From a virus, in IMG/VR virus record IMGVR_UViG_3300047172_000034, positions 1 through 61,318 of that record: a stretch of DNA of 61,318 nt. One strand, given 5' to 3'. The notes under the pieces were generated by a model. That model was not told the origin of the DNA. It searched no databases and saw nothing but the letters and a program-made list of their open reading frames with translations. Both the position numbers and the translations under genes were made by a program. Below are positions 13,029 to 45,296 of the stretch, one piece after another (the stretch's first letter is position 1; every line of letters begins with the position of its first letter).

Positions 13029-13144
13029 CACTCGACGCCAGAAAAGTTATGTGCGGCGGCGTACATAGGCCAAAACAAATCTTTGCGTTCCGGCGTTTGT
13101 GTCGCGAAGCGGCGACGCGTTCTCACCGCGGTCGTTTGAATAAG

Positions 13145-13173
13145 TTGCATGAAGTAGTTACCAATTGGTAAAG
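13145..13173 (+). promoter_or_regulatory. rightward early promoter (PR-like), weak match
   Basis: TTGCAT (13145-13150), 17 bp, then GTAAAG (13168-13173) reproduces the geometry of the other operator-covered promoters. The boxes are weak matches, so the call rests on that geometry and on the downstream Cro-like gene. Confidence 0.45.
13158..13171. promoter_or_regulatory. operator TTACCAATTGGTAA upstream of the cro-like gene
   Basis: This perfectly symmetric 14-bp palindrome ends 12 bp before the ATG of the Cro-like gene, overlapping its promoter -10 region and leader. It is the most symmetric copy in the window. Confidence 0.8.
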
Positions 13174-13183
13174 TCCCCGGCCC

Positions 13184-13441: not shown

Positions 13442-15525
13442 GCCCTCGCCGCCCTAAAACGACTGCCGAGTGGGCGATCGAATACGTTCGCGCCGGCTTG
13501 GTGCTGACGCAATTTGCCGTCGGCCAGAAGGGGCCGCTCTGGAAAGGCTGGAACGATCTCGCATTTGCAATACGCACTGAAGAGGATGCCTCGGTCATCG
13601 GCGGCAACATCGGGCTCTTGCATGCCTATTGCGGCATCGTTTGCATAGATATCGACGACAAGGACAAGGCGATCGCTTGGTTTCTTGAGCACAACATCGA
13701 CCTTCAGGCGCTGCTCGACGCGGGCGATGCCGTTTTGATTCATCGCGGGCACAGCAACAAGACGAAAATCCTGTTTCGCTGCGACGTTAAACTGCCGACC
13801 CGCATGTTCTCCAAGTTTGGTTTCGAACTGCGCTGCGCCTCGGCCAAGGGTCGCTCAATGCAGGACGTTTTACCTCCGTCCGTGCACCCCAGCGGTGCAG
13901 TCTATGAATGGGGCGGCAAGGGCCACTGGTCGAGGATACCGACGATTCCGGCCGACGTGCTCGCTTTATGGCTCAAATTGACGGCCGTTGCCGAACAGCC
14001 GGAAAAGCGACCGCTCGGAGTAGGACGCCGGGATCTGGAAGAACTGCTCGAGCGAATCGACCCGTCGGAATTGGACTACGACGGCTGGCTGCATGTCGGC
14101 ATGGCGCTTCACTTCGAGACCGGCGGCGGCCCCGACGGCGAACAATTGTGGGATCAGTGGAGCTCGCGGTCGCCGAAATACGACCCGGACTATGGCGGCC
14201 CGAAATACGCATCCTTCTCGCTCGATTACCCGAACCCGCGCACAATCGCCACGCTCCAGCGCATGGCGGATGCCGACATGACGTCGGAATTCCAGCCGAT
14301 CGTGCCGGTCGATGAATGTTACGCGGCGGTGCCGGCCACCGCTGCGGCCAATGAGCCGCCGCCGCCGGCGGACAGCAAACCCGCCGGGCCATTGCGGGTT
14401 CAGCCGGTCAATCTCTTCGATCTGCAGCGACCGCCGCCGGAGCCCGACATCATCGTCGACCAACTATTGCTGATGGACGCCTGCGGCTTCGTGGCTCCCG
14501 GAGGCACCGGCAAAACGACTTTAGCCATTTTCGAGGCGATTCACATCATTCTCGGTCGCCCGCTTTGGGGCCGACTCGTCAAAAAACCCGGCAAAGTCTT
14601 GTTTCTCACCGCGGAGGATTCTCGGCAGATCGTCGAATCGCGCCTCAATCTGATCTGCGCCGCCATGGGCCTATCGCTGGCGGAATTGGAGATCGTCGCC
14701 GATGGCTTTTACATCGAGGACTTGTCGATGATCAATGCGCGTTTGGTCGGCATTGACCCGAAGGGCGCGGTGCGCTCGACCAAACTCGTGGTGGAGATAA
14801 TAGAGCGCTATTCGGGACTCGGCATCAGCCTCTGTCACTTGGACCCGGCGAGTCTTCTCGGGCCCGGCGAGGCTTCCGGCAATGACGGCATGTCGGAGCT
14901 GATGCGGGTGTCTCGACGGATCGCCATGTCACTGCGCGCGGCGGCGCAGATCGTCCATCACGTATCGCAGGCCGTCGCGCGGGGCGGCATCGTCGACCAA
15001 TACGCGGCTCGAGGCGGTACGGCGTTCGCCGACAACTCCCGCGGGCAACGGCAGTTGGTGCGGATTCGGGACCGGGAGTATGAATTCAACGGGGTTCGCT
15101 ATCGGATCCCGCCGGCGGTCAGCGACGAGGATTTGTCGAAAGGCCGGTTGCTTGCCATTCTCGTGCATAAACTATCCTATATCGAATTGGACCCGACGCC
15201 GATCTTCATTCTGCGTAACGGCTTCCTGTTCACGCAGATTCAGGCCGACCCACTGGGCCAACGGCAAGCGGCGACGTTGGATGAGGAACTCGAGCGAGTC
15301 GTCGGTTTCGTAGAGCTGGAATTGGTCGCCGACCGGAAGCACACGCCACGGTCGTTGGAATTACGCAACAAGGAAATCGGGGTCACTCGGGCACGCCTTC
15401 GCGACCTGATTGGTGAGGCGCAGCGGGTGGGTCGATTGATACTGACGGATCTGCCAGCACATGAGCGGATCGGCCAGAAGAAGCAATATCTGGCCGTGAA
15501 TGACGGCGGCGATGGCAATTTGTAA
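13438..15525 (+). CDS. primase-polymerase / RepA-like helicase fusion
   Basis: The protein is 695 residues; the ATG at 13438 overlaps the Cro-like stop. The N-terminal prim-pol domain has WAIEYVRAGLVLTQF, LWKGWND, GGNIGLLHAYCGIVCIDIDD (metal-binding DxD) and a later HRGHSNK. A PriCT-like segment follows (ELLERIDPSELDYDGWLHVG). Residues about 330-560 are a RecA-like ATPase with Walker A PGGTGKTT (Lys359), VLFLTAEDS and HLDPASLLG, like RepA helicases. The last 100 residues look winged-helix-like (GVTRARLRDLIGEAQRVGRL). It probably primes and unwinds at the phage origin, which may be the iteron cluster just downstream. Confidence 0.9.
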   Translation: MSPRRPKTTAEWAIEYVRAGLVLTQFAVGQKGPLWKGWNDLAFAIRTEEDASVIGGNIGLLHAYCGIVCIDIDDKDKAIAWFLEHNIDLQALLDAGDAVLIHRGHSNKTKILFRCDVKLPTRMFSKFGFELRCASAKGRSMQDVLPPSVHPSGAVYEWGGKGHWSRIPTIPADVLALWLKLTAVAEQPEKRPLGVGRRDLEELLERIDPSELDYDGWLHVGMALHFETGGGPDGEQLWDQWSSRSPKYDPDYGGPKYASFSLDYPNPRTIATLQRMADADMTSEFQPIVPVDECYAAVPATAAANEPPPPADSKPAGPLRVQPVNLFDLQRPPPEPDIIVDQLLLMDACGFVAPGGTGKTTLAIFEAIHIILGRPLWGRLVKKPGKVLFLTAEDSRQIVESRLNLICAAMGLSLAELEIVADGFYIEDLSMINARLVGIDPKGAVRSTKLVVEIIERYSGLGISLCHLDPASLLGPGEASGNDGMSELMRVSRRIAMSLRAAAQIVHHVSQAVARGGIVDQYAARGGTAFADNSRGQRQLVRIRDREYEFNGVRYRIPPAVSDEDLSKGRLLAILVHKLSYIELDPTPIFILRNGFLFTQIQADPLGQRQAATLDEELERVVGFVELELVADRKHTPRSLELRNKEIGVTRARLRDLIGEAQRVGRLILTDLPAHERIGQKKQYLAVNDGGDGNL

Positions 15526-26547: not shown

Positions 26548-27138
26548 ATGATCACATCGCTCGTACAAGGGGACACGCCCTCGTGGCTGCAAGGCCCTTA
26601 TACGGATCCAGATGGGATCGTCTACGACAGCAGCGCCTACGGCTTGACAACGACAATCGTGGGGCCCAGCGCACCCGTCGTTTTGACCGGAGTGCCGACG
26701 CAAGGCGTGGTGACCGAAGGCTATTGGAGTGAGCCGGGCCCGGGTTGGGAGACCACAATCTCTCAGGCGCAGAGCAGCGCACTCCTGGTCGGCCTGTACT
26801 TCTACACCGCGACGCTCACGGCGAGCGGTTTCTCGCTGACGATTGACAACGGCGAGCTTACCGTTCTTCAAAACCTTGCGAATGCTCCGGCGGGCTATGA
26901 CGGCCGCACGCAGGCCGAGAAGATCGTGGCGCAATACGAGCAAGCGTTTACGCAATGGCAAGCCACCGGCGGCCGCGTGCAGGCGTATACGATCGGCAAT
27001 CGTGAGATGCGATTCCAAGCTGAGAAGGACATCCTCGACGGCCTTCGTTACTGGCGCGCTCGAGTCTTTACCGAAAAATCCCTGAACAAGAATTCCGTCG
27101 ATCGCAATATTCTTGTGAGATTTCAACGTGCCAGATAG
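26548..27138 (+). CDS. head-tail connector-position protein with beta-rich N-terminus
   Basis: This 196-residue protein occupies the gpW slot between terminase and portal. Its C-terminal 90 residues (DGRTQAEKIVAQYEQAFTQW, then REMRFQAEKDILDGLRYWRA) are helical, like head-tail completion proteins. The first 110 residues (SLVQGDTPSWLQGPYTDPDG) look like a small beta-sandwich as seen in phage baseplate or Ig-like modules. It overlaps the portal start by 11 bp. The exact family is not recognised. Confidence 0.65.
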   Translation: MITSLVQGDTPSWLQGPYTDPDGIVYDSSAYGLTTTIVGPSAPVVLTGVPTQGVVTEGYWSEPGPGWETTISQAQSSALLVGLYFYTATLTASGFSLTIDNGELTVLQNLANAPAGYDGRTQAEKIVAQYEQAFTQWQATGGRVQAYTIGNREMRFQAEKDILDGLRYWRARVFTEKSLNKNSVDRNILVRFQRAR

Positions 27139-28378
27139 CTTCCCGAAACGCGTCTGGAATTGGTTTCGCGGCGTAAAGCCGGCCCAGCCGCGTCCGTTCG
27201 GCCCGACAATGGCGCAACAGCGTATGTACGCGAGCGCGATCCCATCGCGCCTGAACATCGGCACCACGGTCGGTTTCAACAATTCGGCCGATGCCGAGCT
27301 CGTCGCTTCGTTGCGCAATCTGCGGACGCGTTCGCGCCAATTGGTGCGCGATGCCGCGTTCGCCAAAAGCGCCAAGCGGATCATCGTCAACAACGTGATC
27401 GGGACCGGCATTCGGCTTGATGGCCGCGTGCTGACGGCGAAGAACACTAGTAACGATTCCGTCAATGAAGGGATTGAAAACGGTTGGGAAACTTGGTGCA
27501 AGGCGGATTCTTGCCATACCGGCGGCGAACTTCACTTCGCAGATCTTGAGCGGCTGATGATGGGTCAGGTTTTCGAAGCCGGCGAAATCTTCATCCGCGT
27601 TCATCGTAGCAAGTTCGGCAGTTCTCAAGTGCCCCTCGCGCTTGAGGTCGTGGAAGCCGAACGGATCCTCGAAGGCTATCAGCAGCCGGGGGACGGCATC
27701 GCACCTGGCAATCAGGTCCGCATGGGTGTCGAATGCGACAAGTTCCAACGGCCGATCGCTTATTGGATTCGCGATCAGCACCCGGGCGACATTCGAGTCG
27801 GCTTTGAGCAGACGGAGAAGATCTCGCGCGTGCCCGCCGCGGACATGTTTCATCTGCGCATCATCGACCGCTGGCCGCAGACGCGAGGCGAGCCGTGGAT
27901 GCACGCTATCGCTCGCAAATTGACCGACATGGACGGCTACAGCGAGGCCGAAATCATTGCCGCGCGCGGCTCCGCGTCCTATCTCGGCACGATCACCACG
28001 CCGGAGGATCCGGAGAGCTTGGGCGACGCTCAGGAAGATGGCACGATTCAACAGCCGGTCGAGCCCGGCATGTGGATGCGCCTACAACCTGGTGAAACGG
28101 CTAATTTCGTGGCGCCGAACCGGCCAAACTCTGCGCTCGACCCGTTTATGCGGTTCATGTTGCGCGAAGTGGCCGCGGGCCTAGGCACTTCTTATGAATC
28201 GCTGAGCCGCGACTATTCACAATCGAATTATTCGAGCAGCCGTCTGGCGCTCCTGGATGATCGCGACGTTTGGCGCGTCGTCCAACAGTGGTTTATCCGT
28301 TCGTTCCGCGAGCCGTTGCATGTTCCGCCCCCGCGGCTGGAGTTGGATCGACCCGACCAAGGAAGTTGCTGCCTATAA
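27128..28378 (+). CDS. portal protein (lambda gpB type), N-terminal part, frame-disrupted
   Basis: The protein begins at GTG 27128 and is recognisable as portal by NSADAELVASLRNLRTRSRQ, AKRIIVNNVIGTG, GIENGWETWCK and GLGTSYESLSRDYSQSNYSS. The reading frame stays true to the family up to FIRSFREPLH near 28320, then runs into unrelated residues and stops at 28378. The family continues there with about 35-40 further residues before the PRGWSWIDP motif, which is found in the next frame. A deletion plus frame change is therefore inferred. An intact portal is essential for packaging. Confidence 0.85.
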   Translation: MPDSFPKRVWNWFRGVKPAQPRPFGPTMAQQRMYASAIPSRLNIGTTVGFNNSADAELVASLRNLRTRSRQLVRDAAFAKSAKRIIVNNVIGTGIRLDGRVLTAKNTSNDSVNEGIENGWETWCKADSCHTGGELHFADLERLMMGQVFEAGEIFIRVHRSKFGSSQVPLALEVVEAERILEGYQQPGDGIAPGNQVRMGVECDKFQRPIAYWIRDQHPGDIRVGFEQTEKISRVPAADMFHLRIIDRWPQTRGEPWMHAIARKLTDMDGYSEAEIIAARGSASYLGTITTPEDPESLGDAQEDGTIQQPVEPGMWMRLQPGETANFVAPNRPNSALDPFMRFMLREVAAGLGTSYESLSRDYSQSNYSSSRLALLDDRDVWRVVQQWFIRSFREPLHVPPPRLELDRPDQGSCCL

Positions 28379-29297
28379 GCAGGCTGTCGTTGCCGGCTTC
28401 ATGACGCAATCGGATGTCATCGCGGCCACCAGCGGCGGTCAAGACCTCGAAGACATCGCTGAGAAGCGCGCCGAGGAATTGAAATACTTCAAGGATAAAG
28501 GCCTCGTATTCGACACCTCGCCGGATGTGTTTGTGCCGGCGGAAACGCGCGGCCAGATCATTGTCGATCCGGACACCGGCGATTTAGAACCCGCCAGCGT
28601 GGTGGCCGCCCAAGCGCAGGCCGAAGGTCAAATCAAAGTCAACGAAGCCAAGCCAGAGCCGCCGGCGCCGGTTGTGGTCGCGCACCCGGGCGGCGCCGCG
28701 GCGCCCGATGCGGCGAACGCGGCGGCGACCGATGCCAAAGTTAAATCGCTGTCTCACGATGTCGCCGACGCGTTTGCGCAAATTCGGCAAATCAAGAGCC
28801 GCGAACGAGAGTTTGGTGATCAGATAGTCGAACATCTGGACGTCTCGCGCACCTTGATCGAACAACAGAAAAAGCAGGTGGCCGAATTGGCGAAGGCGTT
28901 GACGCGGGCCAATGCGCAGGCGGAACAACACGCCAAGGCGATCCGCGAATTCCAAGCCGACAAAACGCAACTCGATGCCGACATTGCGAAACGGTTCGAA
29001 GCCTTGCAAGCGTTGGACGATCGCCGACTGGGCGAGATTCGTGATATCGGCGAACGGCTTGGCACGATCGACGAAAGAATTCTTGAAGCCGCGCAGCAGA
29101 CGCGATCTGAAATGGAATTCCGTACTTCGCTCGTGGAAGAGATCCAACAGTTGCAGTCCCTATCGACCGGCGCTCAGCAGAGCGTTCGCACGCTCGAGAA
29201 GCGGTTAGACGAGGCCACTCAAACGGTCGCCGACCTGACGTCGCGAACGCGCGCCGCCGAACGCTTCGTCGAACGCCTCACCGCCAAGAAGGAATAA
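28320..29297 (+). CDS. portal C-terminal part with long coiled-coil extension, shifted frame
   Basis: Open from before 28257, but the portal-like sequence starts at ATG 28320: FRPRGWSWIDPTKEVAAYKQ, then VAGFMTQSDVIAAT and DLEDIAEKRAEELKYFKDKG, the usual end of gpB-type portals. Beyond about residue 125 a Pro/Ala linker leads to a 200-residue predicted coiled coil (QIVEHLDVSRTLIEQQKKQV to RTRAAERFVERLTAKKE) that ordinary portals lack. ATG 28320 could restart translation, but no good ribosome-binding site precedes it. It ends 3 bp before the protease-capsid gene. Confidence 0.75.
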   Translation: MFRPRGWSWIDPTKEVAAYKQAVVAGFMTQSDVIAATSGGQDLEDIAEKRAEELKYFKDKGLVFDTSPDVFVPAETRGQIIVDPDTGDLEPASVVAAQAQAEGQIKVNEAKPEPPAPVVVAHPGGAAAPDAANAAATDAKVKSLSHDVADAFAQIRQIKSREREFGDQIVEHLDVSRTLIEQQKKQVAELAKALTRANAQAEQHAKAIREFQADKTQLDADIAKRFEALQALDDRRLGEIRDIGERLGTIDERILEAAQQTRSEMEFRTSLVEEIQQLQSLSTGAQQSVRTLEKRLDEATQTVADLTSRTRAAERFVERLTAKKE

Positions 29298-33107: not shown

Positions 33108-33653
33108 GTGTCGCAGATTCTCATCGACAATGCGGCGCGCGGCACGACAAGCTTGTTGGCGACCTGTGTTCCGGCGGCGACGAGCTCGCAATTGCTCGAC
33201 GGCAGCGCGGTCGGCGACGGCACTGGTGATACCGGCTTTAATGCGGCTCGGAAATTGAAACAATGGGCTGCCGACATCAATGCGAACACTGCGCTGATTC
33301 TCGGCAACTATCTCGCCGCCGTGCCGGCGGCCGGTCAGACCAACAATTGGGATCCGACTGGCGGCGCGACTGGCGGGCTCTTGGCCGTTTCCCGCCTCGA
33401 TATCAACCCGTCGGCCGGCAACGCCGTGATCACTGGTTTGTTGGCGACGGCGCTCACCGATGAAAAGTCGATCACCATTCGAAACATTAGCACCAGCAAT
33501 TTAGTAACGCTTTCCCATCAGAACACAAGCTCAAGCGCGGCCAATCAGTTTTACGGCCCTGGTGAGGATCTCATTCTAAACCCCGGCATGGCGGTCAAGG
33601 CCGTCTATTACCTCATCATCAGCGGCCCTAACTATTGGGTCCTCCTGCCGTGA
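33108..33653 (+). CDS. virion or fibre protein with DINPSAG C-terminal module
   Basis: The protein is 181 residues. It has GDGTGDTGFNAARKLKQWAA, typical of phage proteins that declare an element grid, and a C-terminal module INPSAGNAVITGLLATALTD followed by SAANQFYGPGEDLILNPGMA. The same module ends the protein at 39528-40562, so the two share a duplicated domain. Likely an adhesion or structural accessory. This gene opens the non-canonical insertion in the head-tail operon. Confidence 0.65.
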   Translation: MSQILIDNAARGTTSLLATCVPAATSSQLLDGSAVGDGTGDTGFNAARKLKQWAADINANTALILGNYLAAVPAAGQTNNWDPTGGATGGLLAVSRLDINPSAGNAVITGLLATALTDEKSITIRNISTSNLVTLSHQNTSSSAANQFYGPGEDLILNPGMAVKAVYYLIISGPNYWVLLP

Positions 33654-33676
33654 TGATCACTTCATAAAGGATTGCC

Positions 33677-34417
33677 ATGAGCGGATCAGGCTTACAACTC
33701 AATGCAGGCAGCGGCGGCGCTCAATTGTTGGTCGACACCGATTCAGCGACAAGCATCGATGCCCAGGTCGTCAAGATAGGATTTTCGGCGACCACGGCCA
33801 CACCGATTCAGGTTTCCACGGCGAACCCGCTGCCGGTCACTCAGCCGACGCAAGCCGACGGCGCGACCTTTACGCGGTCGACCACGACCGAGGTGGTGGT
33901 CGCCGGCGCCGTTGATTCCAGCGCGCCGAGTTTGACCGCAGGGAAATCTGCCGCTGTGTCTTTGGATACTGCCGGCAATCTGCGTGTCAACGTGGCGGCC
34001 GGCGCCGCCGCTTCTGGGACGGTTTCCGCGCCTTCGGCTGCGCTTCTTTCCAACACGCCAATCCTTAGCACCGCGCCGGGAACGAGCCGCGCCCGCGTCT
34101 ATTCCGCAGCGAGCACGAACGCCACGAGCGTCAAAGGCAGCGGCGGAATTCTGGCGTCCTACACGCTCAGCAACAGCGGTACGACCGGCGCCTGGGTAAA
34201 GTTCTATGACACCGCGTCGGCGCCCACTGCCGGCAGCGGCACGCCGGCGTTCGACGTTTATCTTGCGCCGGGAGCGACAGTTCCTGACGACAAAGGCGCA
34301 TCGGGAGGCATTCCGTTCACGACAGGCATCGGATACACCATCACCGGCGTCGCGACTGACGCCGACACGACGGCCGTCGCCGCGGCCCAAGTCCAAGGCG
34401 TGTTGGTCTACAAGTAA
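33677..34417 (+). CDS. virion structural protein, beta-rich
   Basis: This 246-residue protein is low in charge and rich in Ala, Ser, Thr and Gly, with AGKSAAVSLDTAGNLRVNVA, then YTLSNSGTTGAWVKFYDTAS and GIPFTTGIGYTITGVATDAD. The pattern matches phage virion proteins with a beta-sandwich in which the GIGYTITG turn is conserved. Its stop shares one base with the start of the giant enzyme gene (TAATG). Confidence 0.65.
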   Translation: MSGSGLQLNAGSGGAQLLVDTDSATSIDAQVVKIGFSATTATPIQVSTANPLPVTQPTQADGATFTRSTTTEVVVAGAVDSSAPSLTAGKSAAVSLDTAGNLRVNVAAGAAASGTVSAPSAALLSNTPILSTAPGTSRARVYSAASTNATSVKGSGGILASYTLSNSGTTGAWVKFYDTASAPTAGSGTPAFDVYLAPGATVPDDKGASGGIPFTTGIGYTITGVATDADTTAVAAAQVQGVLVYK

Positions 34418-37400
34418 TGTCGCCATTTTTCATTTTTCTCGCGCCCCAAGTTTCAACGCCGAACGACCCAATCGGCGCGCAATTGCCGTTTACCGGCATT
34501 CTCCTTCGTCAAGGAAATCAGCTATCAAACGGCACTCAAGTCGGCACTTTGCAGGGAACGAATGTCAGCGGCCTGGAATATGCGCGCGCTCAAGGGGATT
34601 CAACAGACTGGTCCGATGGTAGTCCGCCAAATCATAATGTCCTGCGCACTTGGATGGGCAACGTCGAACGCATCGCGATCAACGTCCAATCTTGGCTTGG
34701 GTACACATGCGGCAATCTTGTCGCCACTACCGCGATTGCATTTACACCGACTGCACCGACTTTCGGCTCGACGGGCGGAACTCTGACGACGCCGTTCGCG
34801 CTCGCAAGCGGAACCTATCCAATCTATTTCAACGGCACTAGCGGCGCTACGCCCTACACCGTTGGCACGTTTATGAATGGCTCGACTACGGTCACTTGGC
34901 CAACGCTCGATATGTCGGGCAGCAACTCAAACGCGCCGAGCGTCAATGCAGTCATCGGTACAATTGGAAGCACCAGAAACCTAGATCCTGCTGGAACTTA
35001 TCGCGCGTCAGTAATTGCGGAAGTTGCTGCGGCTCAAGCGGACGGAAGCTATGTCATCATCGACCAGCATTGGTCTGGTATTGATGTGGTGATCGGCGCA
35101 ACAACCTATCATCTCCTGCAGCGCGGCCAGCCGCAGTTCGCGAACACGAGCGATGCGATCCTTTATTGGACAAGCATTTCGGGCGTATTCGGAAATGCAG
35201 TTCAGCCGCAGCCTGGGATCAACAACAATGCGATCGCCTTTGAACTGTTCAATGAGCCGTTCATTGAACCAAATAGCTACAAGCTGACAACGACCGCTGG
35301 CGGATCGACGACGATAAGTGATCGCAGCGCCGCGTTGAACATGGCATCCGCGTTTTGCTCAGTCTTTGTCTGCGGCGGTACGCCGTCGCTCATTCCGTTC
35401 AATTGGCAACTCGCAAGCTATCAGAGCATGGTGAATGCCGCGACCGCGAACGGATCGACAAATCTGTGCATCATCAATGGCAACAACTATGCGCAAAACG
35501 TCCAAGACTTCTTGGCGTACATGCCGACTCACCCGACCGGAAATCTTGCGGTTGGCGTTCATGATTACGCGAGCGGCACGCCACCGTCTTATTCCGATGG
35601 CGACATCTATGGAAAGAACGGTTCCGATGGGGGTTACGGAACGAGCGCGGCGATCAACGGCCAACTCTATGCGTTGAGTCAAGGCTATCCAGTCATTTCG
35701 ACGGAAAGCGGCGGCGGCGACGGTACAACGTGCGCGGCCAACGAACTCTATATGCGGTATACGAATTTGATGTCGGACGTTCATGGCATCTCGCGCGTGC
35801 GCTATCGATTCACGCAAACGCGATCCAATGGTTATGCTGGGCCAACCTCAAGCGATGGACCTTTCCAAACCGTTTTTGATACCGATGGATCGACAATTCT
35901 CCCCATTGGCGGGACTGGACAAGCGTCTTTCGATTGGCAAAGAGGTCATCGGGGCGCGTTGCTGATCAACGGCACCGACTGCATTAGTCCGGCGATTCCG
36001 CACACCTCGAGCGGCGGCACGAGCGGGCTCGGTGTATTTGGCTCGCAATGGCGTTCAAGTCAGGGCGTTCCTTCGCCGACAAACGTCGTCACGCTGGCGT
36101 ATGACATCAGCTATCAAACCGCGGGCGGCTGCACTCAGGTCAAACATTTTTGGAACAGCGATGGTCAGCCAAATTACGATTCGTACACCAGTGCGCCGAG
36201 CACGCCTTACTACAACAATCCAGGCGCTTATCTGATTCAGACCAACACGGCTGCCGGCGGAACCTACCCGACAACTGGATGGGTGACGGTTGGCTCTCGT
36301 GGTGCCCCGTATTCGGCGGCGACTCTCATCGTTCAAAACAACGCGGATGACATCATTGATGTCGGTGGTGGCGTGAATTGGGTACAGCTTGCGTTCACCG
36401 CAGGCAATGGTAGCAGCGCGAATTCCGATATAGGAATCAGTTCGTTTCTTTTCGACACGACGAATTGCGAGAGCAACGGCGGGATAGCCCCCGACAACGG
36501 CTTCTTTTTCATGGGTGACTCGATCACCGAGCATGCCATGCATTACAACAATCCGGCGGATGATTCCGGACCCAATTCTGGCGTTCAGATACCCTGCGCT
36601 CCCTTCCCTACGATCGTCCGAACAGGCGGTTTCATAACCGCCGGATCGCTCACGACCGCTGGCAGCGGGTATACGCCTGGGACCTACAAAACGGTGCTGT
36701 TAACCGGCGGCACTGGATCTTGCGCGATCGCGAATGTTTTCGTGAATTCAAGCGGTAACGTAGTTAGCGTAAAGCCATCTGCGATCATTGGCATGGGCTT
36801 CGGGTTTAAGGTCGGCGATGTGCTTTCGGTCCCTTTCACGCAAATCGGAGGAAGCGGAACTCAGGCCACTTGGACCGTTACCGCGTTACAAAAGCCCTCA
36901 AAACTGCAAGGCTACTACGTCGAACAGGCTCCGGGCGGCAGCGGTGGTTGGAATATTGGGGGGGGGAATTCGGTCGATTGGGCGACCTATCTCACCACTC
37001 AGTACACAAACCTTTTTTCGGCAAATTTCGCTGGCAACAATGTTTGCATTCAGCTCGGCACGAATGGCGTCGGCGCTACGTCTAACTTCGTCAACGGCAT
37101 GAACACGGTGATTGCCCTCCTCCAGGCTGCGGGCAAACAAGTGTTTATCGAATCGCCGCCGCCGTCACCGTATAGCAATTCTTGGCTACCAGGGTATGTG
37201 GCGGCGATACCGGGAATAATCTCGGCAAATCCCGGTGTGCTGCAAGGATTCAACGCCAATGTGATGTCATTTAATTATTTGGATTCCGGACTCCATCCGG
37301 ACGGTCATGGAAGTGTCGCTTTGAGAGTCGGTAAGGCTCAGTTCTATAGCGGTCAATTCAGCGATCAGGAGGTTTACGCTCCGCCTATCTGGACGACGTT

Positions 37401-39498
37401 GAAAGTCGGGGCCGGCGGTTTTGTCAGAGGCCTCAACATTGCTCCCGATGGGACGATGGTCGCACGCACGGATACGAATGGCGCGTATCTATACAACGGC
37501 TTTAATTGGGTTCAGCTTTTCACAACGAATTCACTGCCTTCGTCATTCGTCACTGCCGCTACCGTTTTGGCTTTTCCGCAAGGGTGTTTTGAGATTCAGA
37601 TCGCCCCAAGCAACACGCAGATCTTCTATGCGGTGTTCGATGGCTACGTGTGGGTAAGTTCCAATCAGGGCACGACCTGGACTCAAACCGCGTTCGCGCA
37701 AAACACCGGCGGCATGAACCCAAATGACAACTATGGCCAAGTCAGCCAGCGCATGGCGGTGGACCCGTATAATTCGAACATCGTTTTCGTCGGCACTGAA
37801 AACAACGGTCTGTATTTGACGACCAACGGCGGAACTTCTTTCACGCAGATACCGACCTCAAGCCTCCCGGCGGGCACTGGCGCGGGCATTTGCGGTCTCC
37901 TGTTCAACGCCAACGGAACCGTCACCGGCGGCGTCACGCAGACGATCTATGCCTTTGTGTATGGTACGGGCCTGTACGTCAGCAACAATGCGGGCGCCAC
38001 ATGGACTGCGACCACTGGTGGCCCAACCACGATGAATGGCGCGGCCATCGATGGGTCGGGCCATTACTTTGTCGCCAACAGCGCGGGCCTCTATAAGTAC
38101 AGCGGCGGTACTTGGTCTACGTTGTACACAGACGGAAACGGCGTGCAGACGGTAGCCATCAATCCGTTCAACAACAGCGAAATCGCTGCGCTTCGCGGCA
38201 GCGGCTGGATCAGTTTGAGCTACGATGGTGGCGCGACATGGAGTGGTGCGAACTACCAGACCACGACGGTAGCCAAACAAATCCCCTGGCTAGTGGCGGC
38301 AAACTATAATGGGTCGGCCACAAACATCTTCATCGACGCCGGAGCCTGCGCGTTTTCGCCGACGACAAACGGCGAATTGATCTGTTCGGCGGGTACGGGC
38401 GTATGGCAAACGACCCTTCCTTCTTCCGGTTTCACTGCAACGACCGCTACCTCGTGGAATGATTTTTCGGTCGGCATCGAGCAATTGGTGGCGAATGAAA
38501 TCATCATCGCGCCGACGACTGGCTCGACGCCTTTGCTGGTTTCTTGGGATCGCCCGTTCTTTGACATAACGAATCAGGCGGCTTACCCCGCAACCTACGG
38601 GCCGACCAATTCGGACGCGATCATTGCGGGGTGGTCGGCCGATTACGCCTCTTCCAGCCCAGGCACGATTGCAGGCATCGCCAATTTCGGCACTGAAGAA
38701 AGCGGCATCACAACCAATAACGGCGCGAGTTGGACGGCCTTTGCAGCTTCACCCGCAGGGCATACGCAAAGTTTCGGAATCGGCGGCGGCAGCATCGCCG
38801 CGAGCACTCCATCAAATATCCTTTGGTCGCCAGCCGGAGGCGTCGCGCCGTCTTATACGACTAACGGCGGGACAAGTTGGACGCAGATTTCGATATCCGG
38901 AATATCGAGCTGGGCGGGCTATCAAGCGCAGTATTACAACAACCAACGGGCTGTGTGCGCGGATCGCGTCACCGCGAATACGTTTTATCTCTATTGGGGC
39001 GGTAAGGGCGTGTACGTCAGCACCAATAGCGGTGCGACTTGGACGCAGCAGCTATCGGGCTATATCGAAAGCAACAGCACCTGGGCGGGGTACGGCTCAA
39101 CGATTCGATCGGTGCCGGGAAATGCGGGCCATCTGTTCTACACGCCAGGGAATGTCGGCTCTCAGACCTTCAACAATTCGCAATCCGTACCTTTCTATCG
39201 ATCGACCAACAGCGGAGTGACGTGGACAACGGTTTCCGGGGTCAACGGTGTCCAATGCTTCAATTTTGGCGCGATCGCTCCGGGCGCTTCTTACCCGAGC
39301 ATTTATGTTGTGGGTTATGTGAACAACGTCTACGGCGTCTATTACTCCACGGACAATGCGACTACCTGGAACAGTCTTGGCGATCCGAACACGACGTTGC
39401 AGACGTTTGGGTGCGCGGGTTGCATTGCCGCAGATCCCAACAATTTTGGAAAAGTTTATGTGGGTCTCGGTGGGGCGGGTTATGCACATTACGGATAA
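34417..39498 (+). CDS. giant multi-enzyme adhesin: GH5-like cellulase + SGNH hydrolase + GH74-like propeller
   Basis: The protein is 1693 residues. Residues about 45-440 resemble GH5: TNVSGLEY, SYVIIDQHW, FELFNEP (acid/base Glu280) and VISTESGG (nucleophile Glu430). About 690-975 is an SGNH/GDSL hydrolase: FMGDSITEH (Ser702), LGTNG (Asn883) and DSGLHPDGHG (Asp956, His960). From about 1000 the chain is a GH74-like beta-propeller, opening VGAGGFVRGLNIAPDGTMVA with at least eight Asp-box-like repeats (S-x-N-x-G-x-T-W). It probably clears cellulose-like or acylated exopolysaccharide at the host surface. No signal peptide is clear. Confidence 0.8.
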   Translation: MSPFFIFLAPQVSTPNDPIGAQLPFTGILLRQGNQLSNGTQVGTLQGTNVSGLEYARAQGDSTDWSDGSPPNHNVLRTWMGNVERIAINVQSWLGYTCGNLVATTAIAFTPTAPTFGSTGGTLTTPFALASGTYPIYFNGTSGATPYTVGTFMNGSTTVTWPTLDMSGSNSNAPSVNAVIGTIGSTRNLDPAGTYRASVIAEVAAAQADGSYVIIDQHWSGIDVVIGATTYHLLQRGQPQFANTSDAILYWTSISGVFGNAVQPQPGINNNAIAFELFNEPFIEPNSYKLTTTAGGSTTISDRSAALNMASAFCSVFVCGGTPSLIPFNWQLASYQSMVNAATANGSTNLCIINGNNYAQNVQDFLAYMPTHPTGNLAVGVHDYASGTPPSYSDGDIYGKNGSDGGYGTSAAINGQLYALSQGYPVISTESGGGDGTTCAANELYMRYTNLMSDVHGISRVRYRFTQTRSNGYAGPTSSDGPFQTVFDTDGSTILPIGGTGQASFDWQRGHRGALLINGTDCISPAIPHTSSGGTSGLGVFGSQWRSSQGVPSPTNVVTLAYDISYQTAGGCTQVKHFWNSDGQPNYDSYTSAPSTPYYNNPGAYLIQTNTAAGGTYPTTGWVTVGSRGAPYSAATLIVQNNADDIIDVGGGVNWVQLAFTAGNGSSANSDIGISSFLFDTTNCESNGGIAPDNGFFFMGDSITEHAMHYNNPADDSGPNSGVQIPCAPFPTIVRTGGFITAGSLTTAGSGYTPGTYKTVLLTGGTGSCAIANVFVNSSGNVVSVKPSAIIGMGFGFKVGDVLSVPFTQIGGSGTQATWTVTALQKPSKLQGYYVEQAPGGSGGWNIGGGNSVDWATYLTTQYTNLFSANFAGNNVCIQLGTNGVGATSNFVNGMNTVIALLQAAGKQVFIESPPPSPYSNSWLPGYVAAIPGIISANPGVLQGFNANVMSFNYLDSGLHPDGHGSVALRVGKAQFYSGQFSDQEVYAPPIWTTLKVGAGGFVRGLNIAPDGTMVARTDTNGAYLYNGFNWVQLFTTNSLPSSFVTAATVLAFPQGCFEIQIAPSNTQIFYAVFDGYVWVSSNQGTTWTQTAFAQNTGGMNPNDNYGQVSQRMAVDPYNSNIVFVGTENNGLYLTTNGGTSFTQIPTSSLPAGTGAGICGLLFNANGTVTGGVTQTIYAFVYGTGLYVSNNAGATWTATTGGPTTMNGAAIDGSGHYFVANSAGLYKYSGGTWSTLYTDGNGVQTVAINPFNNSEIAALRGSGWISLSYDGGATWSGANYQTTTVAKQIPWLVAANYNGSATNIFIDAGACAFSPTTNGELICSAGTGVWQTTLPSSGFTATTATSWNDFSVGIEQLVANEIIIAPTTGSTPLLVSWDRPFFDITNQAAYPATYGPTNSDAIIAGWSADYASSSPGTIAGIANFGTEESGITTNNGASWTAFAASPAGHTQSFGIGGGSIAASTPSNILWSPAGGVAPSYTTNGGTSWTQISISGISSWAGYQAQYYNNQRAVCADRVTANTFYLYWGGKGVYVSTNSGATWTQQLSGYIESNSTWAGYGSTIRSVPGNAGHLFYTPGNVGSQTFNNSQSVPFYRSTNSGVTWTTVSGVNGVQCFNFGAIAPGASYPSIYVVGYVNNVYGVYYSTDNATTWNSLGDPNTTLQTFGCAGCIAADPNNFGKVYVGLGGAGYAHYG

Positions 39499-39527
39499 GA
39501 AGTTAAACCCATGGGGGCTTTAATTAC

Positions 39528-40562
39528 ATGCTCCCAATACTCGTTCAGCTTGCCATGCTCGGCGGCGGATCATCTGGAGAAGATATGACAACCGCATTGA
39601 ATCCGATTGCGATCGGAACGACTCCGGGCGATGGCACCGGCGACATACCGCGCGCAGGTTTCACGAAGGTCAAATCGGATCACGCTCACTTCCTATCCGC
39701 GATCGGATATCGGGCAACGAATCCCGGGACATTCGGAGTCTCAAGCAGCGCGGGTTCGACCACGGTTCTTAACGATGCGACGAATAGCTGGAACACTTCG
39801 GCGAACGGCGGGTTAGGGCAGTTCGCCGGTCAAACGCTGACGCTATTGACCGGCGCGAACGCCGGCGATTCGCAGACGATCCAAAGCAACACTTCGAATT
39901 CAATTACGGTAAGCACCGCGTTCGGCGCTGTGATCGCGTCAGGCGTCGGCTATCAGATTTCGCCGACCGTCGTGAATGCGGGTTCCGATGGGTTCGCAAA
40001 TCTTGCCGGTTCAACGAATCCCGGCAGCATCATCGACGGCAACCAAAGTTGGACCGCGAATCAGTGGACCGACTTTGGCGTGACGTTGCTTGCGGGCCCC
40101 TATGCCGGACAGACCTTCGGCATCAAGTCAAACATCGGCAACACCCTGGTATTGCGGACCAATCTATCGACGGCGATCGCCGCCGGCACGCCCTACGTCA
40201 TCGGGGCGCTACCGCTTACAGGGAATTTTAATTCGGTGGTCTCCGCGGCGCTCTCTGCGAACCAAAACGATTACGCGCCGACTGGCTGGGGGCCTTCGGT
40301 CAACAAACTAAAACTGAATCCGTCGGCCGGCGTCCAGATAACCGGCTTGAGTGCAACGGGGTTTGCCGACGGCGCGCGTGTGTTGCTCGAGAATCGAGAC
40401 ACGACGATCACCAACAATATTACTCTCCTGCACGCCTCGTCCTCATCGGCGAGCGCGAATCAGTTTCTTTTGCCTGGCGGTGCCAGTTATTCGCTGGTCC
40501 CGTTCCAAAAGGCGTTGCTCGTTTACGATTTGGCTACAACCTCCTGGGGCATCTTGTCATGA
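39528..40562 (+). CDS. fibre-type virion protein with repeated beta modules
   Basis: The protein is 344 residues. It has PGDGTGDIPRAGFTKVKSDH near the start, two related repeats (LTLLTGANAGDSQTIQSNTS and VTLLAGPYAGQTFGIKSNIG, each ending in a YQI/YVI strand), and the C-terminal LNPSAGVQITGLSATGFADG module shared with the protein at 33108-33653. A second start at 39585 has GGAGA upstream and would remove a hydrophobic leader, so the true start is uncertain. It is probably a tail fibre or adhesion subunit. Confidence 0.65.
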   Translation: MLPILVQLAMLGGGSSGEDMTTALNPIAIGTTPGDGTGDIPRAGFTKVKSDHAHFLSAIGYRATNPGTFGVSSSAGSTTVLNDATNSWNTSANGGLGQFAGQTLTLLTGANAGDSQTIQSNTSNSITVSTAFGAVIASGVGYQISPTVVNAGSDGFANLAGSTNPGSIIDGNQSWTANQWTDFGVTLLAGPYAGQTFGIKSNIGNTLVLRTNLSTAIAAGTPYVIGALPLTGNFNSVVSAALSANQNDYAPTGWGPSVNKLKLNPSAGVQITGLSATGFADGARVLLENRDTTITNNITLLHASSSSASANQFLLPGGASYSLVPFQKALLVYDLATTSWGILS

Positions 40563-41974
40563 AGAAAATTGCTGCGATCCTTCTGTCGGCGCTGCTACCG
40601 GCGTTCGCTTTCTCGCAGGCGTATGGCGTCTTTCAACCGGGCGGCGATCTTACCGGCACCTGGAACAGCCAACAGATTGCGACGAATGCCATTACGCTCT
40701 CAAAGATGGCGACGGTCGTTGGCACGGCGGGCTCAACAAGCACTCCGGCGTTGATCGGCAATAACACCAGCACCGCAACAACGCCGATCGCGCTCACGCC
40801 GCTGCAGGTCAATGCGATGCTTGGCACATCGATGGCGGTCTCGGCAATCTGCGACTCGTACTGCCTAAATACGATTTTCGGCGGCGGCGGGTCTACGGGT
40901 ACAACCCTGCCGAGCGGTGGCGCGACTGTCGATGGCGTCGTGATGGTGCAAGGCCAGACCGTGTTGATCACGGGCTATATTATCAACACCTATTTAAATG
41001 GCATTTACATTGTCAACACGAGCAGCACATGGACGCGCTCTAACAATTTCGTCGGGACATTGCCGCAAAACTGTGATGTCGCGGTCTTTGTCAGAAGCGG
41101 GAACGTCTACGGCGGCGATATTTTTAGCCTTGCCACGACGAGCGGCGCGATCACGATCGGCTCGACCGCGCAAACATGGACACTTTCAAACTCTGTCGGC
41201 GCGCTGCCAGGTGCGTCAACGATCACACTAAACCCACCGACTGGCAGCGCCACGGTAACGGTCCAGGCCGTCAGCCCTAACAGCAGCACCGGAGAAGTTT
41301 TAAACATTCAAAGTGGTGTGGGCACGGAAAGCAGTGGTGGCACGATCAACATCACAGTCCCAACCTCAGTCACGCAGGGAACTACTCCGCACGCGGGCGG
41401 CGGCCTTAATTTTGCGGCAGGCAGTGGCATCGGGGTAGGCGCGGCGAACGGCGGCAGCCTGTTTCTCAGCGCGGGTAATGGCGCACCTTCGGCGGCTGGC
41501 GTTACGGGACGAGGTGGGAATGTCACGCTAACGTCAGGGACTGCTTTTGAGGGTAACGGCGGCACGATGGCACTTACCGCCACCAACGGCGCATCGACGC
41601 TCGGAACCGCGCGCAACGGCGGCACCGTCACGATCACGTCGGGCACTGCGGTCAACTCCGGCGTACCGGGCTCCATCGCGCTTGCTGGTCCGGTGCTGAA
41701 TCAAGGCACGCAGGCGACCCCATCCGGCTGTTCGATTTCCGCAAGTTCTGGCGGTGTGGCGGTGGGCCAGTACACCTCTGGGACTAGCGGCACCTGCACG
41801 GTCACAATCGCATTGCCGACGGTCGCCAACATCCACGGCTATTTTTGCTCGGCGCATGACGAGACGACCGCCGCCGACTATGCACAGATTGCCACAGCAA
41901 CGACCTCGACGCTCACTGTGTCCGGAACCACGGTCAGCGGCGATATCGTCAAGTATTTCTGCGAGGGGTACTAA
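40559..41974 (+). CDS. fibre-like protein with N-terminal signal peptide
   Basis: The protein is 471 residues. The first 20 (MKKIAAILLSALLPAFAFSQ) form a textbook Sec signal with a probable cleavage after FSQA. Then come GVFQPGGDLTGTWNSQQIAT (a common phage fibre opening), VLITGYIINTYLNGIYIV...STWTRSNNF (the fibre module also found in stiff tail fibres), and a long Gly/Thr-rich repeat region. A signal peptide on a fibre-like phage protein is odd and suggests export from the lysogen or late infection. It overlaps the preceding stop by 4 bp. Confidence 0.65.
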   Translation: MKKIAAILLSALLPAFAFSQAYGVFQPGGDLTGTWNSQQIATNAITLSKMATVVGTAGSTSTPALIGNNTSTATTPIALTPLQVNAMLGTSMAVSAICDSYCLNTIFGGGGSTGTTLPSGGATVDGVVMVQGQTVLITGYIINTYLNGIYIVNTSSTWTRSNNFVGTLPQNCDVAVFVRSGNVYGGDIFSLATTSGAITIGSTAQTWTLSNSVGALPGASTITLNPPTGSATVTVQAVSPNSSTGEVLNIQSGVGTESSGGTINITVPTSVTQGTTPHAGGGLNFAAGSGIGVGAANGGSLFLSAGNGAPSAAGVTGRGGNVTLTSGTAFEGNGGTMALTATNGASTLGTARNGGTVTITSGTAVNSGVPGSIALAGPVLNQGTQATPSGCSISASSGGVAVGQYTSGTSGTCTVTIALPTVANIHGYFCSAHDETTAADYAQIATATTSTLTVSGTTVSGDIVKYFCEGY

Positions 41975-41977
41975 GCA

Positions 41978-43267
41978 ATGCGTTTTTTGCTCGCGTTCCT
42001 TTTTCTGTTTGCTACGTCGGCTTGGGCTGCAAACCAGCCTAGTGTTCTCAATAATTCCGATCACATCAGCGGAGCCTTATCGAATGCCCTGACTGCGATC
42101 GGACTCTCGTATTCCACAACAACAGGCCCTTCCGCTGGATCTGTTTCTCTGAATCAAACGTGTGCGAGCGGACTGACCGGAGGAACGGGATGCCTAAATT
42201 CTGTAGGTAGCACGAACTTCTTGTACGACGGTACCGCAATTTCTAATGCCGCCAACACCGGCCAGACCGAGTTCGCGCTCGGATCTACAAGCGTTGTGAC
42301 GCCATCGGTTCCGTATCAAATTATCAATCGCTCATCGAGCTCGGGTTCCAGCATCACTGCTCTCGACCAGCAGTTCTATCAATCGCTTGAGTCAAACGGA
42401 ATTTTATACTCGGTCGCCTATTGCGGGACTCCTGCAGCAAACGACTATCCGCCGATCGCGTATATCACCGCGCTTCCGAACATCGCCTCGAGTGCCGGGT
42501 CGTCCGGCGGGTGCGGGTATCAGAACGGAATCGAATTCAGTGTGAATGCGGGAGGTCCGGGTCAAACCTGTGTTGTCGGCACGAATTGCCAATGGAGTAT
42601 TTGCGCCAGCGGTTTTCTCGGATGCACTGGAACTCCGGTCGATGCCAGTTCGCCATCCGCGACTCAGGAAGCGGTCACGGCGGTTCTAACGGCGATTAAG
42701 TCTGCGCATCCAACCTGGACCTGGGGCGATATAAAGGCCGCACTCAGGCAAAGTGCGAGCAACTGGTCAACGGGATATGCGGCGTCCACCGGCAGCGGAG
42801 CATCGACGTCATTCGGTTTTGGCAACATTAATTACACGACAGCGGTCGGCTATACAAACCCGGCGACGTTTTATCTCCAGCCGCCGGGCTTTGTCGCGAA
42901 TGGCTACGGGCAATATGCCGTGTTCGTGCTTTATCCGTTTCAACAAACTCGCCGAGTCGGCGAGGTTATTTATGAATTCACTAGCAACCCAACGAGCGCA
43001 CTGGCGACGCTGACGGCTACTAACAACAATTTGACCTATTCGCAGGTGTCTGCGCTTGGCGGGAGTCTGATCTATCAATCATCGGGAAGTCCGACGAATG
43101 CTCAGACTTTTTCTTGGTCGCCGTCAAGCGGATCGAATGTGCAGTATTGGTTCGTGGCTTTCACCACAGACAACGCGACGCTTGCCTCGTCGAATTTCTC
43201 GCGCGGTGAGTCGTTCACGATTCTGACCGAAACGCTCAGCGTCTCGTATTCCTGCCTGCGCCAGTAA
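41978..43267 (+). CDS. exported protein with degenerate subtilase-like C-terminal half
   Basis: The protein is 429 residues. MRFLLAFLFLFATSAWAANQ is a clear signal peptide. The middle has SSPSATQEAVTAVLTAIKSA then HPTWTWGDIKAALRQSA and FGFGNINYTTA, matching the end of S8 peptidases (serine loop, then a PxW-xWxDIKxAL helix and GFGxxN). The Asp and His motifs of the triad are not visible, so it is probably catalytically dead or a distant relative. The C-terminal 140 residues are a beta-rich module. It may be a surface or virion protein. Confidence 0.6.
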   Translation: MRFLLAFLFLFATSAWAANQPSVLNNSDHISGALSNALTAIGLSYSTTTGPSAGSVSLNQTCASGLTGGTGCLNSVGSTNFLYDGTAISNAANTGQTEFALGSTSVVTPSVPYQIINRSSSSGSSITALDQQFYQSLESNGILYSVAYCGTPAANDYPPIAYITALPNIASSAGSSGGCGYQNGIEFSVNAGGPGQTCVVGTNCQWSICASGFLGCTGTPVDASSPSATQEAVTAVLTAIKSAHPTWTWGDIKAALRQSASNWSTGYAASTGSGASTSFGFGNINYTTAVGYTNPATFYLQPPGFVANGYGQYAVFVLYPFQQTRRVGEVIYEFTSNPTSALATLTATNNNLTYSQVSALGGSLIYQSSGSPTNAQTFSWSPSSGSNVQYWFVAFTTDNATLASSNFSRGESFTILTETLSVSYSCLRQ

Positions 43268-43285
43268 CGTTAAAAGGGGTATTCG

Positions 43286-43690
43286 ATGACCATTCAATAC
43301 GATGCGACGCATCGAGCGAACAACATGGGTGATCTCGTGTCTCGCGCGGGCGCCACGGCGTTCATTCTCCTGTACTCCGCGGCGGCAGCCAACTGCGCCG
43401 CGGCCGCCTCAGGCACTTTGCTCGCTTCCATTCCCTGCAACAACCCGATCGGCACCGTGGCTTCCGGCGTCCTCACGTTTAACGTATCGGGGATGTCGGT
43501 GTCGTCGGGTGTCGTCGCGGGTACGGCCGTCCAATGGCGTTTGTGCACCTCGTCGGGCGGCACGACCTGCATTGCCCAAGGCGATGTCGGCACCACGGGC
43601 GCAAGCATTGATTTTGCAGGCGGCCCCACCTTCGCGGCAGGGCAAACGGTCCAGATCACCGGATTGACGATCACCGCAGCGGGAGCGTAA
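43286..43690 (+). CDS. virion protein preceding the tail tube gene
   Basis: This 134-residue protein starts MTIQYDATHRANNMGDLVSR and contains GTLLASIPCNNPIGTVASGV and a final FAAGQTVQITGLTITAAGA. The sequence is beta-rich and low in charge, as in small virion proteins that accompany tail tube genes. It precedes the tail tube gene by one base. No defined domain is recognised. Confidence 0.65.
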   Translation: MTIQYDATHRANNMGDLVSRAGATAFILLYSAAAANCAAAASGTLLASIPCNNPIGTVASGVLTFNVSGMSVSSGVVAGTAVQWRLCTSSGGTTCIAQGDVGTTGASIDFAGGPTFAAGQTVQITGLTITAAGA

Positions 43691-43691
43691 C

Positions 43692-45296
43692 GTGACGTGG
43701 ACGTTTGACGGCACCGCCCCGACATTCGATCGGGGTGCGTCAGGCGGGTTTACCTTCGACGGCGCCGGCGGCAGCGGGTCCTCCGCGTCCGGTTCCGGGG
43801 CGATCACGGACCCGTCAGACGCGGTTGTGGGTTCGGGCGTTGCGGTCATCTCTGGTGCGGGCGCGGGTAGCATTACGGATCCGCCGGATACGGTCGCGGG
43901 CACCGGCGCGCTTCTGCCGCTCGTCATCGCCAACCCGTCGAACCTAACGACGGGCGCCGGCGGTATGGCTACCTTCATCGCCTCGGCGATCGGATCACCG
44001 GCACCAACCGTCCAGTGGCAACTATCGACGAATTCCGGCTCGACCTGGTCGAATATCTCGGGCGCGACAAACACGAGCTACACGACCGCCACGCTGACGA
44101 CGGCGAACAACGGTTACCAATATCTCGCGGTCTTTACCAATAGCGCCGGCAGCGCGACGACCAGCGCGGCGACGCTCGCTGTTTACGCGGCGCCGGCTTG
44201 GGCTGGTGCCGACGGGATCAGCGATTCCGGCGTCGGTTCGACCTACGCGATGATTAGTTGGTCGCCGGCAACGGCGGGATCGCCGGTCGCCTACTACGAA
44301 CTTCAGGTTACTCCCATGGGCGGGTCGGCCATTCCGGTCAACACCGGCAGTTCGGCCACTTCGTTCGGTTTGAGTGGGCTCGCCCCTAATACGCCCTATG
44401 TAGTTCAGGTCGGCGCTTATGACGCGGAAGGCAACTTCTCCGGCTATCAGGCTGCCACAGCATCGTTCACCACTTCCGCAACCATCATCACCGGCACATC
44501 AGGAGGCCGCATGTCTCAATATCAATTTGGCGCTGGTGTTCTTTTCGGAACGCCTCTCACCAACGCGCAAGGCCAGGCCGTTCAGGCGTCGCCGGTTCAA
44601 TTCGGTGCGCTGCAGGACGTCAGCCTTGACATCTCGTTTGACACGAAGATGCTATACGGCTCGAACCAGTTCCCGCTCGCCGTCGGCCGCGGCAAGGGCA
44701 AGATCAGCGGCAAGGCAGCGTTCGCGCAGATGAACGGATCGTTGCTGAACAATTTGCTTTTCGGGCAAACGCTGAATCCGAACGTGATCAACGATTATTA
44801 CGACACGACCGGCACCGCGATTCCCGGTACGCCGTACACGATTACGCCGGTCACCTCTTACGCCTCGCTATTGTCCGGCGGCACTACACCGACCTTCGTG
44901 GCGGATCTCGGCGTCAGAAATTCGAGCGGCGTCCCGTTGACCGTCGTGGCGAGCGGCCCGACCACGGGTCAATACTCTGTTTCCGGAGGCGTCTACACGT
45001 TCGCAGCAGCGGATACCGGCACCACCGTATTCATCTCGTTCCAATACACCGCCACCAGTGCCACCGCGCGGCAAAGCACGGTGCAGAACGTGTTGATGGG
45101 GTACGCGCCCTCTTTCGCGTGCGATCTGTATATGCCTTATAACGGCAAACAGTTGATCGTCCATCTGTTCAATTGTTTGTCCACCAAGCTGACCATCGCG
45201 ACGAAGCTTGACGACTTTACCATTCCGTCATTCGACTTTGAGGCGTTCGCCAACGGCGCCGGCCAGGTCATGACCTATAGCACGTCGGATAACTAA
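43692..45296 (+). CDS. tail tube protein with N-terminal Ig-like and FN3-like domains and internal start
   Basis: The protein is 534 residues from GTG 43692. Residues 80-165 are an Ig-like domain (IANPSNLTTGAGGMATFIAS, VQWQLSTNSGSTWSNISGAT) and 175-262 an FN3-like domain (SWSPATAGSPVAYYELQVTP). From Met274 (44511), preceded by a perfect AGGAGG, begins the tube domain: FGAGVLFGTPLTNAQGQAVQ, LQDVSLDISFDTKMLYGSNQ and a late LTIATKLDDFTIPSFDFEAF. So a 261-residue tube protein and a decorated long form can come from one gene. Lambda gpV carries its Ig domain at the other end. Confidence 0.82.
   Translation: MTWTFDGTAPTFDRGASGGFTFDGAGGSGSSASGSGAITDPSDAVVGSGVAVISGAGAGSITDPPDTVAGTGALLPLVIANPSNLTTGAGGMATFIASAIGSPAPTVQWQLSTNSGSTWSNISGATNTSYTTATLTTANNGYQYLAVFTNSAGSATTSAATLAVYAAPAWAGADGISDSGVGSTYAMISWSPATAGSPVAYYELQVTPMGGSAIPVNTGSSATSFGLSGLAPNTPYVVQVGAYDAEGNFSGYQAATASFTTSATIITGTSGGRMSQYQFGAGVLFGTPLTNAQGQAVQASPVQFGALQDVSLDISFDTKMLYGSNQFPLAVGRGKGKISGKAAFAQMNGSLLNNLLFGQTLNPNVINDYYDTTGTAIPGTPYTITPVTSYASLLSGGTTPTFVADLGVRNSSGVPLTVVASGPTTGQYSVSGGVYTFAAADTGTTVFISFQYTATSATARQSTVQNVLMGYAPSFACDLYMPYNGKQLIVHLFNCLSTKLTIATKLDDFTIPSFDFEAFANGAGQVMTYSTSDN

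Follow-up and report, generated by a model that had tools for sequence, protein, structure and literature searches.

A phage protein joining GH5, SGNH esterase and GH74 domains in one chain: a possible virion-borne enzyme for processing polysaccharide

What is a chain of 1693 amino acids with three unrelated hydrolase-type domains doing among the structural genes of a temperate phage? This question is raised by the protein P0001, encoded in the IMG/VR virus record IMGVR_UViG_3300047172_000034, whose whole length of 61,318 nucleotides (the window) was analyzed in this study. The window is a 61-kb record of a soil-type temperate tailed phage with integrase, terminase, portal, capsid, tape measure and tail-tip genes. 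An initial annotation had proposed that a glycoside hydrolase family 5 (GH5) enzyme, an SGNH esterase and a GH74-like propeller were joined in P0001 and that the protein would clear a capsule or biofilm from the virion. Judged from sequence, three unrelated catalytic domains are combined in one chain of this phage genome with their catalytic residues kept. With middling confidence, we read P0001 as an enzyme that processes polysaccharide as a built-in component of the virion, most likely within an adsorption (fibre) cassette, and that derived from the fusion of a GH5-SGNH protein with a GH74 protein.

The P0001 frame is unbroken from ATG to stop. The start codon overlaps the stop codon of the upstream gene by one base (TAATG), which makes the start credible and couples it translationally. 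As originally proposed, a GH5 core, an SGNH esterase and a GH74 part were all found in this single frame, the last being a complete double propeller, and the catalytic residues named at that time (E280, E430, S702, N883 and H960) were each found at their numbers. Two homologues were used for comparison. The unrelated phage G001 (IMGVR_UViG_3300047462_000148, 47.8 kb), found by a motif scan, encodes a 1262-amino-acid GH5-SGNH protein that is 46-48% identical to P0001 residues 22-980 and has no GH74, and a profile built from both phage proteins hit a 410-amino-acid lipoprotein-like esterase of Thermosporothrix (L145) with E=4e-11. No additional homologue came from a second motif scan (QGVPSPTN), and megablast and whole-protein scans of viral contigs gave no close relatives. 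The features of the chain are listed below.

34417..39498, + strand: P0001, giant protein of 1693 amino acids (GH5, beta-rich linker domain, SGNH esterase, GH74)
34480..36030, + strand: GH5 region, residues 22-538 (Pfam core 191-449), by PF00150 and 46-48% identity with phage G001
35254-35256 and 35704-35706, + strand: codons of E280 and E430, the GH5 catalytic Glu pair
36037..36486, + strand: beta-rich, probably jelly-roll-like domain before the SGNH core, residues 541-690, aligned with G001 and L145
36487..37356, + strand: SGNH/GDSL esterase core, residues 691-980, by homology to G001 and L145 and a PDB profile match
36520-36522, 37063-37065, 37282-37287 and 37294-37296, + strand: SGNH codons of S702, N883, D956-S957 and H960
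36619..36906, + strand: virion-structural repeat domain inside the SGNH core, residues 735-830, by matches to PHROG 6005, PHROG 5342 and S-PM2
37378..39495, + strand: GH74 double beta-propeller, residues 988-1693, by PDB sequence matches, an AlphaFold model and structure alignment
37471-37473 and 38641-38643, + strand: codons of the GH74 catalytic residues D1019 and D1409

GH74 is the firmest of the three domain assignments. Thirteen GH74 enzymes of the PDB matched P0001 in phmmer searches, the best with E=1.1e-41 over residues 988-1689, and an AlphaFold model of the domain made with 19 homologues had a predicted local distance difference test score (pLDDT) of 87.5. Alignment of this model by VIA-align with the C. 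thermocellum xyloglucanase 2cn2 gave Z 41.6 over 644 residues and a root-mean-square deviation of 3.1, and all 17 best entries of the structure comparison were GH74 or close relatives; by sequence and by model, the match is far above chance. The motifs ARTD and SxDYA, which carry the catalytic Asp of solved GH74 enzymes, line up with D1019 and D1409, and D was found at the 1019 column in 18 of the 19 other viral GH74 rows. The corresponding catalytic Asp residues named for PoXEG74 are D70 and D477 (PMC10317168). With a full double propeller and both catalytic Asp in place, the earlier wording "GH74-like" was too cautious. A BFVD search returned low-TM (template modelling score) propeller matches only, among them a protein of Achromobacter phage Motura that is annotated as "xyloglucan hydrolase".

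GH74 was also present in about 19 further IMG/VR viral contigs, mostly as a gene of its own, and the nearest phage copy, a stand-alone gene of phage G002, is 51% identical to P0001. Sampling was pattern-based, and the bacterial enzymes compared are those among the matches listed. A tree built from 65 GH74 domains grouped the viral sequences with a few bacterial ones and apart from 40 other bacterial enzymes, a split with a Shimodaira-Hasegawa-like approximate likelihood ratio (SH-aLRT) of 100 once long branches had been taken out. The approximately unbiased (AU) test rejected strict monophyly of the viral GH74 (p=0.002): two sequences from Bdellovibrionales and one from Verrucomicrobia, the closest bacterial ones among the matches listed, lie inside the viral group. 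Within the sampled sequences the clade is thus virus-dominated, not virus-only. Other GH74 genes were also noted. The viral contig L099 (2583-8030) encodes an 1815-amino-acid protein with a signal peptide, a C-terminal GH74 and about 1100 residues without a Pfam family except for one Ig-like domain. Contig C1 of G010 has GH74 genes at both ends (1-2070 and 42910-44982; 41% and 40% identity to P0001), representing either two copies or terminal redundancy. A GH74 gene on a Bradyrhizobium barranii plasmid (L002, 18142-20289) adjoins type I secretion and polysaccharide-biosynthesis genes, a neighbourhood that suggests a bacterial-glycan instead of a plant substrate there.

The GH5 assignment is firm by Pfam, where PF00150 matched residues 191-449 with E=3.7e-15. 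E280 sits in NEP and E430 in ESG, and both residues, together with R85, H218, N279, H382 and Y384, are invariant between P0001 and G001, proteins with 48% overall identity. A two-sequence GH5 profile searched against the PDB matched a xyloglucan-specific endoglucanase best, a weak hit (E=0.03) that serves as a substrate hint. The GH5 part matched no phage record at E up to 1 and gave only a weak match among plasmids, and its profile revealed no convincing donor in 297 genomes of Acidobacteriota (the phylum of G014) and 241 of Verrucomicrobiota (the phylum of G012), a null result that proves little. GH5-like proteins with NEP motifs and no close relation to P0001 were seen on the viral contigs L116 (2326-3354, - strand) and L118 (7024-8253).

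For the SGNH part, the direct Pfam match of P0001 had E=0.14, unconvincing by itself, and the best PDB match of the profile was E. coli thioesterase I (1jrl, E=0.0042). L145, which Pfam classes as a GDSL hydrolase (PF13472, E=2.8e-14), aligns with the phage proteins across the preceding beta-rich domain and the entire SGNH core. S702 in GDSIT, N883 in GTNG and H960 in HPDGHG, which represent blocks I, III and V, are aligned in P0001, G001 and L145, and at the sequence level the SGNH domain is confirmed through this bacterial homologue. The core of both phage proteins holds an insert (residues 735-830) that is absent from L145. The insert resembles repeats of phage virion proteins, with matches to the virion structural family PHROG 6005 (E=1.9e-7), the tail-fiber family PHROG 5342 (E=1.2e-4), the baseplate-wedge family PHROG 438 (E=1.4e-3) and an S-PM2 virion structural protein (E=1e-4). 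It is the best evidence in the sequence that P0001 may be meant for the particle, though such repeats are no proof. Searches with the SGNH part found only the insert and a weak esterase match among phage records, and nothing among plasmids.

Are the domains active? Two observations weigh against this. The Asp of the DxxH motif is not at its expected place in P0001, which reads D956-S-G-L-H960 with Ser957 at the Asp position, whereas the motif is regular in both homologues (DGTH in G001 and DGIH in L145); the esterase could possibly work with a dyad, or with a triad through Asp956. The expected end of GH5 strand 8 reads RYRF in P0001 versus NWEW in G001, and the active-site aromatic residue, the strand-8 Trp, may have changed. 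AlphaFold prediction of residues 22-985 from two sequences reached a pLDDT of 29, too low to judge the geometry of the GH5-SGNH active sites. The displaced Asp and the Trp replacement, the latter seen in P0001 and not in G001, would suit a binding protein with residual or lost catalysis, whose domains are polysaccharide-binding adhesins holding the phage on exopolysaccharide, and Asp-box propellers are likewise frequent among proteins that are not enzymes. We consider this quite unlikely, since E280, E430, S702, N883, H960, D1019 and D1409 are all retained together and G001, with an overall identity of 48%, has the same GH5 and SGNH catalytic residues.

Since GH5-SGNH occurs separately in G001 and GH74 occurs as a stand-alone phage protein, P0001 is best seen as a fusion of two phage modules. 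The G001 protein carries two N-terminal CHB_HEX_C domains, and the gene after it shares a 194-amino-acid domain with the window gene at 39528-40562. The rarity of a three-activity chain, claimed in the initial annotation, holds for the combination and not for its two halves, which circulate separately in other phages. The same facts could be produced by a chimeric assembly, in which the GH5-SGNH and GH74 of different phages were joined in the metagenome: the halves match different phages with a junction near residue 985, the contig is metagenomic, and its portal gene differs from that of a near-identical contig by a deletion of about 95 bp. Such an artefact is very improbable, because the junction is in frame within a single 5 kb open reading frame, G+C content is even across that frame (0.54-0.58), neither parent is near-identical (48% and 51%) so that no donor sequence is evident, and multidomain GH74 fusions exist elsewhere, for example the 1815-amino-acid protein of L099.

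Where would the fused protein act? P0001 is encoded among structural genes in the head-tail operon. The distance from the end of the capsid gene to the start of the tape-measure gene is 14.4 kb here and 2.8-5.3 kb in nine relatives; 43 capsid relatives were fetched, spacing was compared in these nine, and for most of the nine the tape-measure gene was assigned by its length and place, not through a match. In one relative, L164, the capsid, tail tube, tape measure, NlpC and tip genes follow in order without the extra genes. From the longer spacing, P0001 and its neighbours at 33108-43267 form a cassette that is accessory within the operon and that the nine relatives appear to lack. Its components are as follows.

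33108..43267, + strand: accessory cassette (about 10 kb) containing P0001, between the tail terminator and tail-tube genes, by spacing relative to nine relatives
33108..33653, + strand: small virion-like protein, sharing a domain with 39528-40562 (40% identity over 93 amino acids)
33677..34417, + strand: low-complexity structural-type protein directly upstream of P0001 and coupled to it
39528..40562, + strand: fibre-like protein with a Phage_BR0599 motif and the 194-amino-acid domain common with the G001 gene beside GH5-SGNH
40559..41974, + strand: fibre-like protein with a weak DUF5907 match and a Sec signal peptide-like N-terminus
41978..43267, + strand: protein without assigned function, with a Sec signal peptide-like N-terminus

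No export signal was seen on reading the N-terminus of P0001, and no signal peptide was found in its nearest relatives L007, L097 and G001. Together with the virion-type repeat insert, the structural-type neighbours, the fibre domain shared with the gene beside GH5-SGNH in G001 and the coupling within the late operon, this argues that P0001 is probably located in the virion.

A number of findings speak against a place in the particle. The whole chain had no match in PHROGs and showed neither a known virion-attachment domain nor a trimerisation region. The cassette lies upstream of the tape measure and away from the tail tip, which host-range fibres usually adjoin. Sec, Tat or lipoprotein signals were called in 7-8 of the 20 viral GH74 proteins (about 40%), Sec-like N-termini occur on two neighbours of P0001 (40559-41974 and 41978-43267), and export signals were more frequent in genes neighbouring GH74 (14/179) than in other genes (4/204, p=0.008), all of which weakens the virion reading; the signals were called by a simple heuristic of our own on crude gene calls. 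Export signals on the neighbours and on viral GH74 are easier to reconcile with secretion than with assembly into a particle. In the literature, too, GH74 and GH5 genes of viruses have been described as auxiliary metabolic genes, namely GH74 in cold-seep viruses (PMC8319345) and a soil-virus GH5 with mannanase activity (PMC6786970).

The export signals and these published readings would suit an auxiliary metabolic or lysogenic-conversion enzyme, made in the infected or lysogenic cell and, not borne by the virion, released at lysis or exported, that degrades plant hemicellulose (acetylated xyloglucan) or loosens biofilm for the spread of progeny. The GH74 families act on xyloglucan, a Xanthomonas CE20 acetylesterase with an inserted domain works beside GH74 (PMC8245568), and the phage carries an integrase. 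We nevertheless hold this alternative to be unlikely: neither P0001 nor the phage proteins closest to it have a signal peptide, the gene is no separate moron but is coupled to others in the late structural operon, and a virion-structural repeat lies within the chain itself.

Signal-like genes were also observed in runs within structural modules beside GH74, in the window (40559-41974 and 41978-43267) and in L006, L008, L010, L016, L099, L108, L113 and L114; L008 has five signal-bearing genes and a signal on its GH74 gene (5000-14878). Export signals on fibre-like proteins are unexpected for cytoplasmic assembly. Two other structural genes of the window deserve record. The probable tail-tube protein (43692-45296) has an N-terminal Ig/FN3 extension and is 534 amino acids long versus 251 in L164. 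The portal gene is about 95 bp shorter than in the near-identical contig L154 (28313-28322 versus 3760-3846 in L154, with a 10-bp overlap at the ends) and is read as two overlapping frames (27128-28378 and 28257-29297) where L154 has one frame of 754 amino acids, by either assembly collapse or a real deletion. Weak hints from the large terminase subunit (Roseobacter and Paracoccus phages) and the capsid (Roseomonas, 36%) suggest that the host is probably an alphaproteobacterium.

GH5 and GH74 enzymes act mainly on beta-1,4-glucans, GH5 more widely. For P0001 as a virion-built enzyme we infer the activity, the substrate, the location and the order of action. The SGNH domain would strip acyl groups, GH5 would cleave the exposed beta-1,4-glucan stretches, and GH74 would cleave where glucose units are branched (substituted), which GH5 tolerates poorly. 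The three activities combined would open an acylated, side-chain-bearing, cellulose-like exopolysaccharide so that the particle reaches the cell surface. An additional role of the GH74 propeller and of the beta-rich domain may be to anchor the particle on the polymer. Such a chain would have arisen when a phage GH5-SGNH protein was fused to a phage GH74 protein. Clearing of a capsule or biofilm by P0001, as first suggested, would have a good precedent in phage S6 (PMC9544554). A wider proposal is more tentative, namely that phages of soil bacteria share the virus-dominated GH74 lineage in exchangeable structural-gene cassettes directed at bacterial cellulose-like exopolysaccharides and not at plant xyloglucan, with P0001 as a three-activity version acting on the particle, and with the same enzymes exported by the host in some phages, ahead of lysis, so that the matrix dissolves.

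Very few phages are known to cut cellulose-type matrices, S6 being one; what is new here is the three-domain combination and the viral GH74 lineage. A literature search found no description of GH74 as a phage infection enzyme. If the reading is true, three complementary activities on one chain would amount to a new kind of enzyme for biofilm matrix and would make a useful tool. Viral GH74 genes have so far been read in viromes as plant-carbon auxiliary genes; the virus-dominated clade suggests that they may largely be infection enzymes, which would change the accounting of viral contributions to soil carbon turnover.

Among known systems, Erwinia phage S6 uses cellulose as its first receptor and encodes a predicted GH48 (gp094) and a proven active GH5 cellulase (gp095) (PMC9544554). 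Like P0001, it thus brings phage-encoded beta-1,4-glucan hydrolases of more than one family, GH5 included; unlike P0001, these are two separate proteins with neither SGNH nor GH74, and S6 is a podovirus with a gammaproteobacterial host (PMC9544554). Classical capsule depolymerase tailspikes resemble P0001 in the proposed digestion of a host surface polysaccharide for access, but they are trimeric beta-helices, usually with one activity, and no beta-helix or trimer region was detected in P0001 by PHROG and Pfam searches of the chain and modelling of its GH74 part. The Xanthomonas xyloglucan system pairs GH74 with the CE20 acetylesterase XacXaeA, which has an inserted domain in its catalytic core (PMC8245568). 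It shares with P0001 a GH74 plus an acetylesterase whose core is interrupted, a likeness drawn from the published description and not from CE20 sequence homology, and it differs in having separate genes in a bacterial utilisation locus and a different insert. The GH74 xyloglucanases 2cn2, 6mgj and 6p2m have the entire double propeller and both catalytic Asp in common with P0001, at 25-29% identity by structure alignment, whereas the P0001 domain falls in a virus-dominated clade apart from the sampled bacterial enzymes. The G001 protein is alike in GH5, the beta-rich domain and the SGNH core with the same insert, at 48% identity, and belongs to a different phage type, with N-terminal CHB_HEX_C domains where P0001 has its C-terminal GH74.

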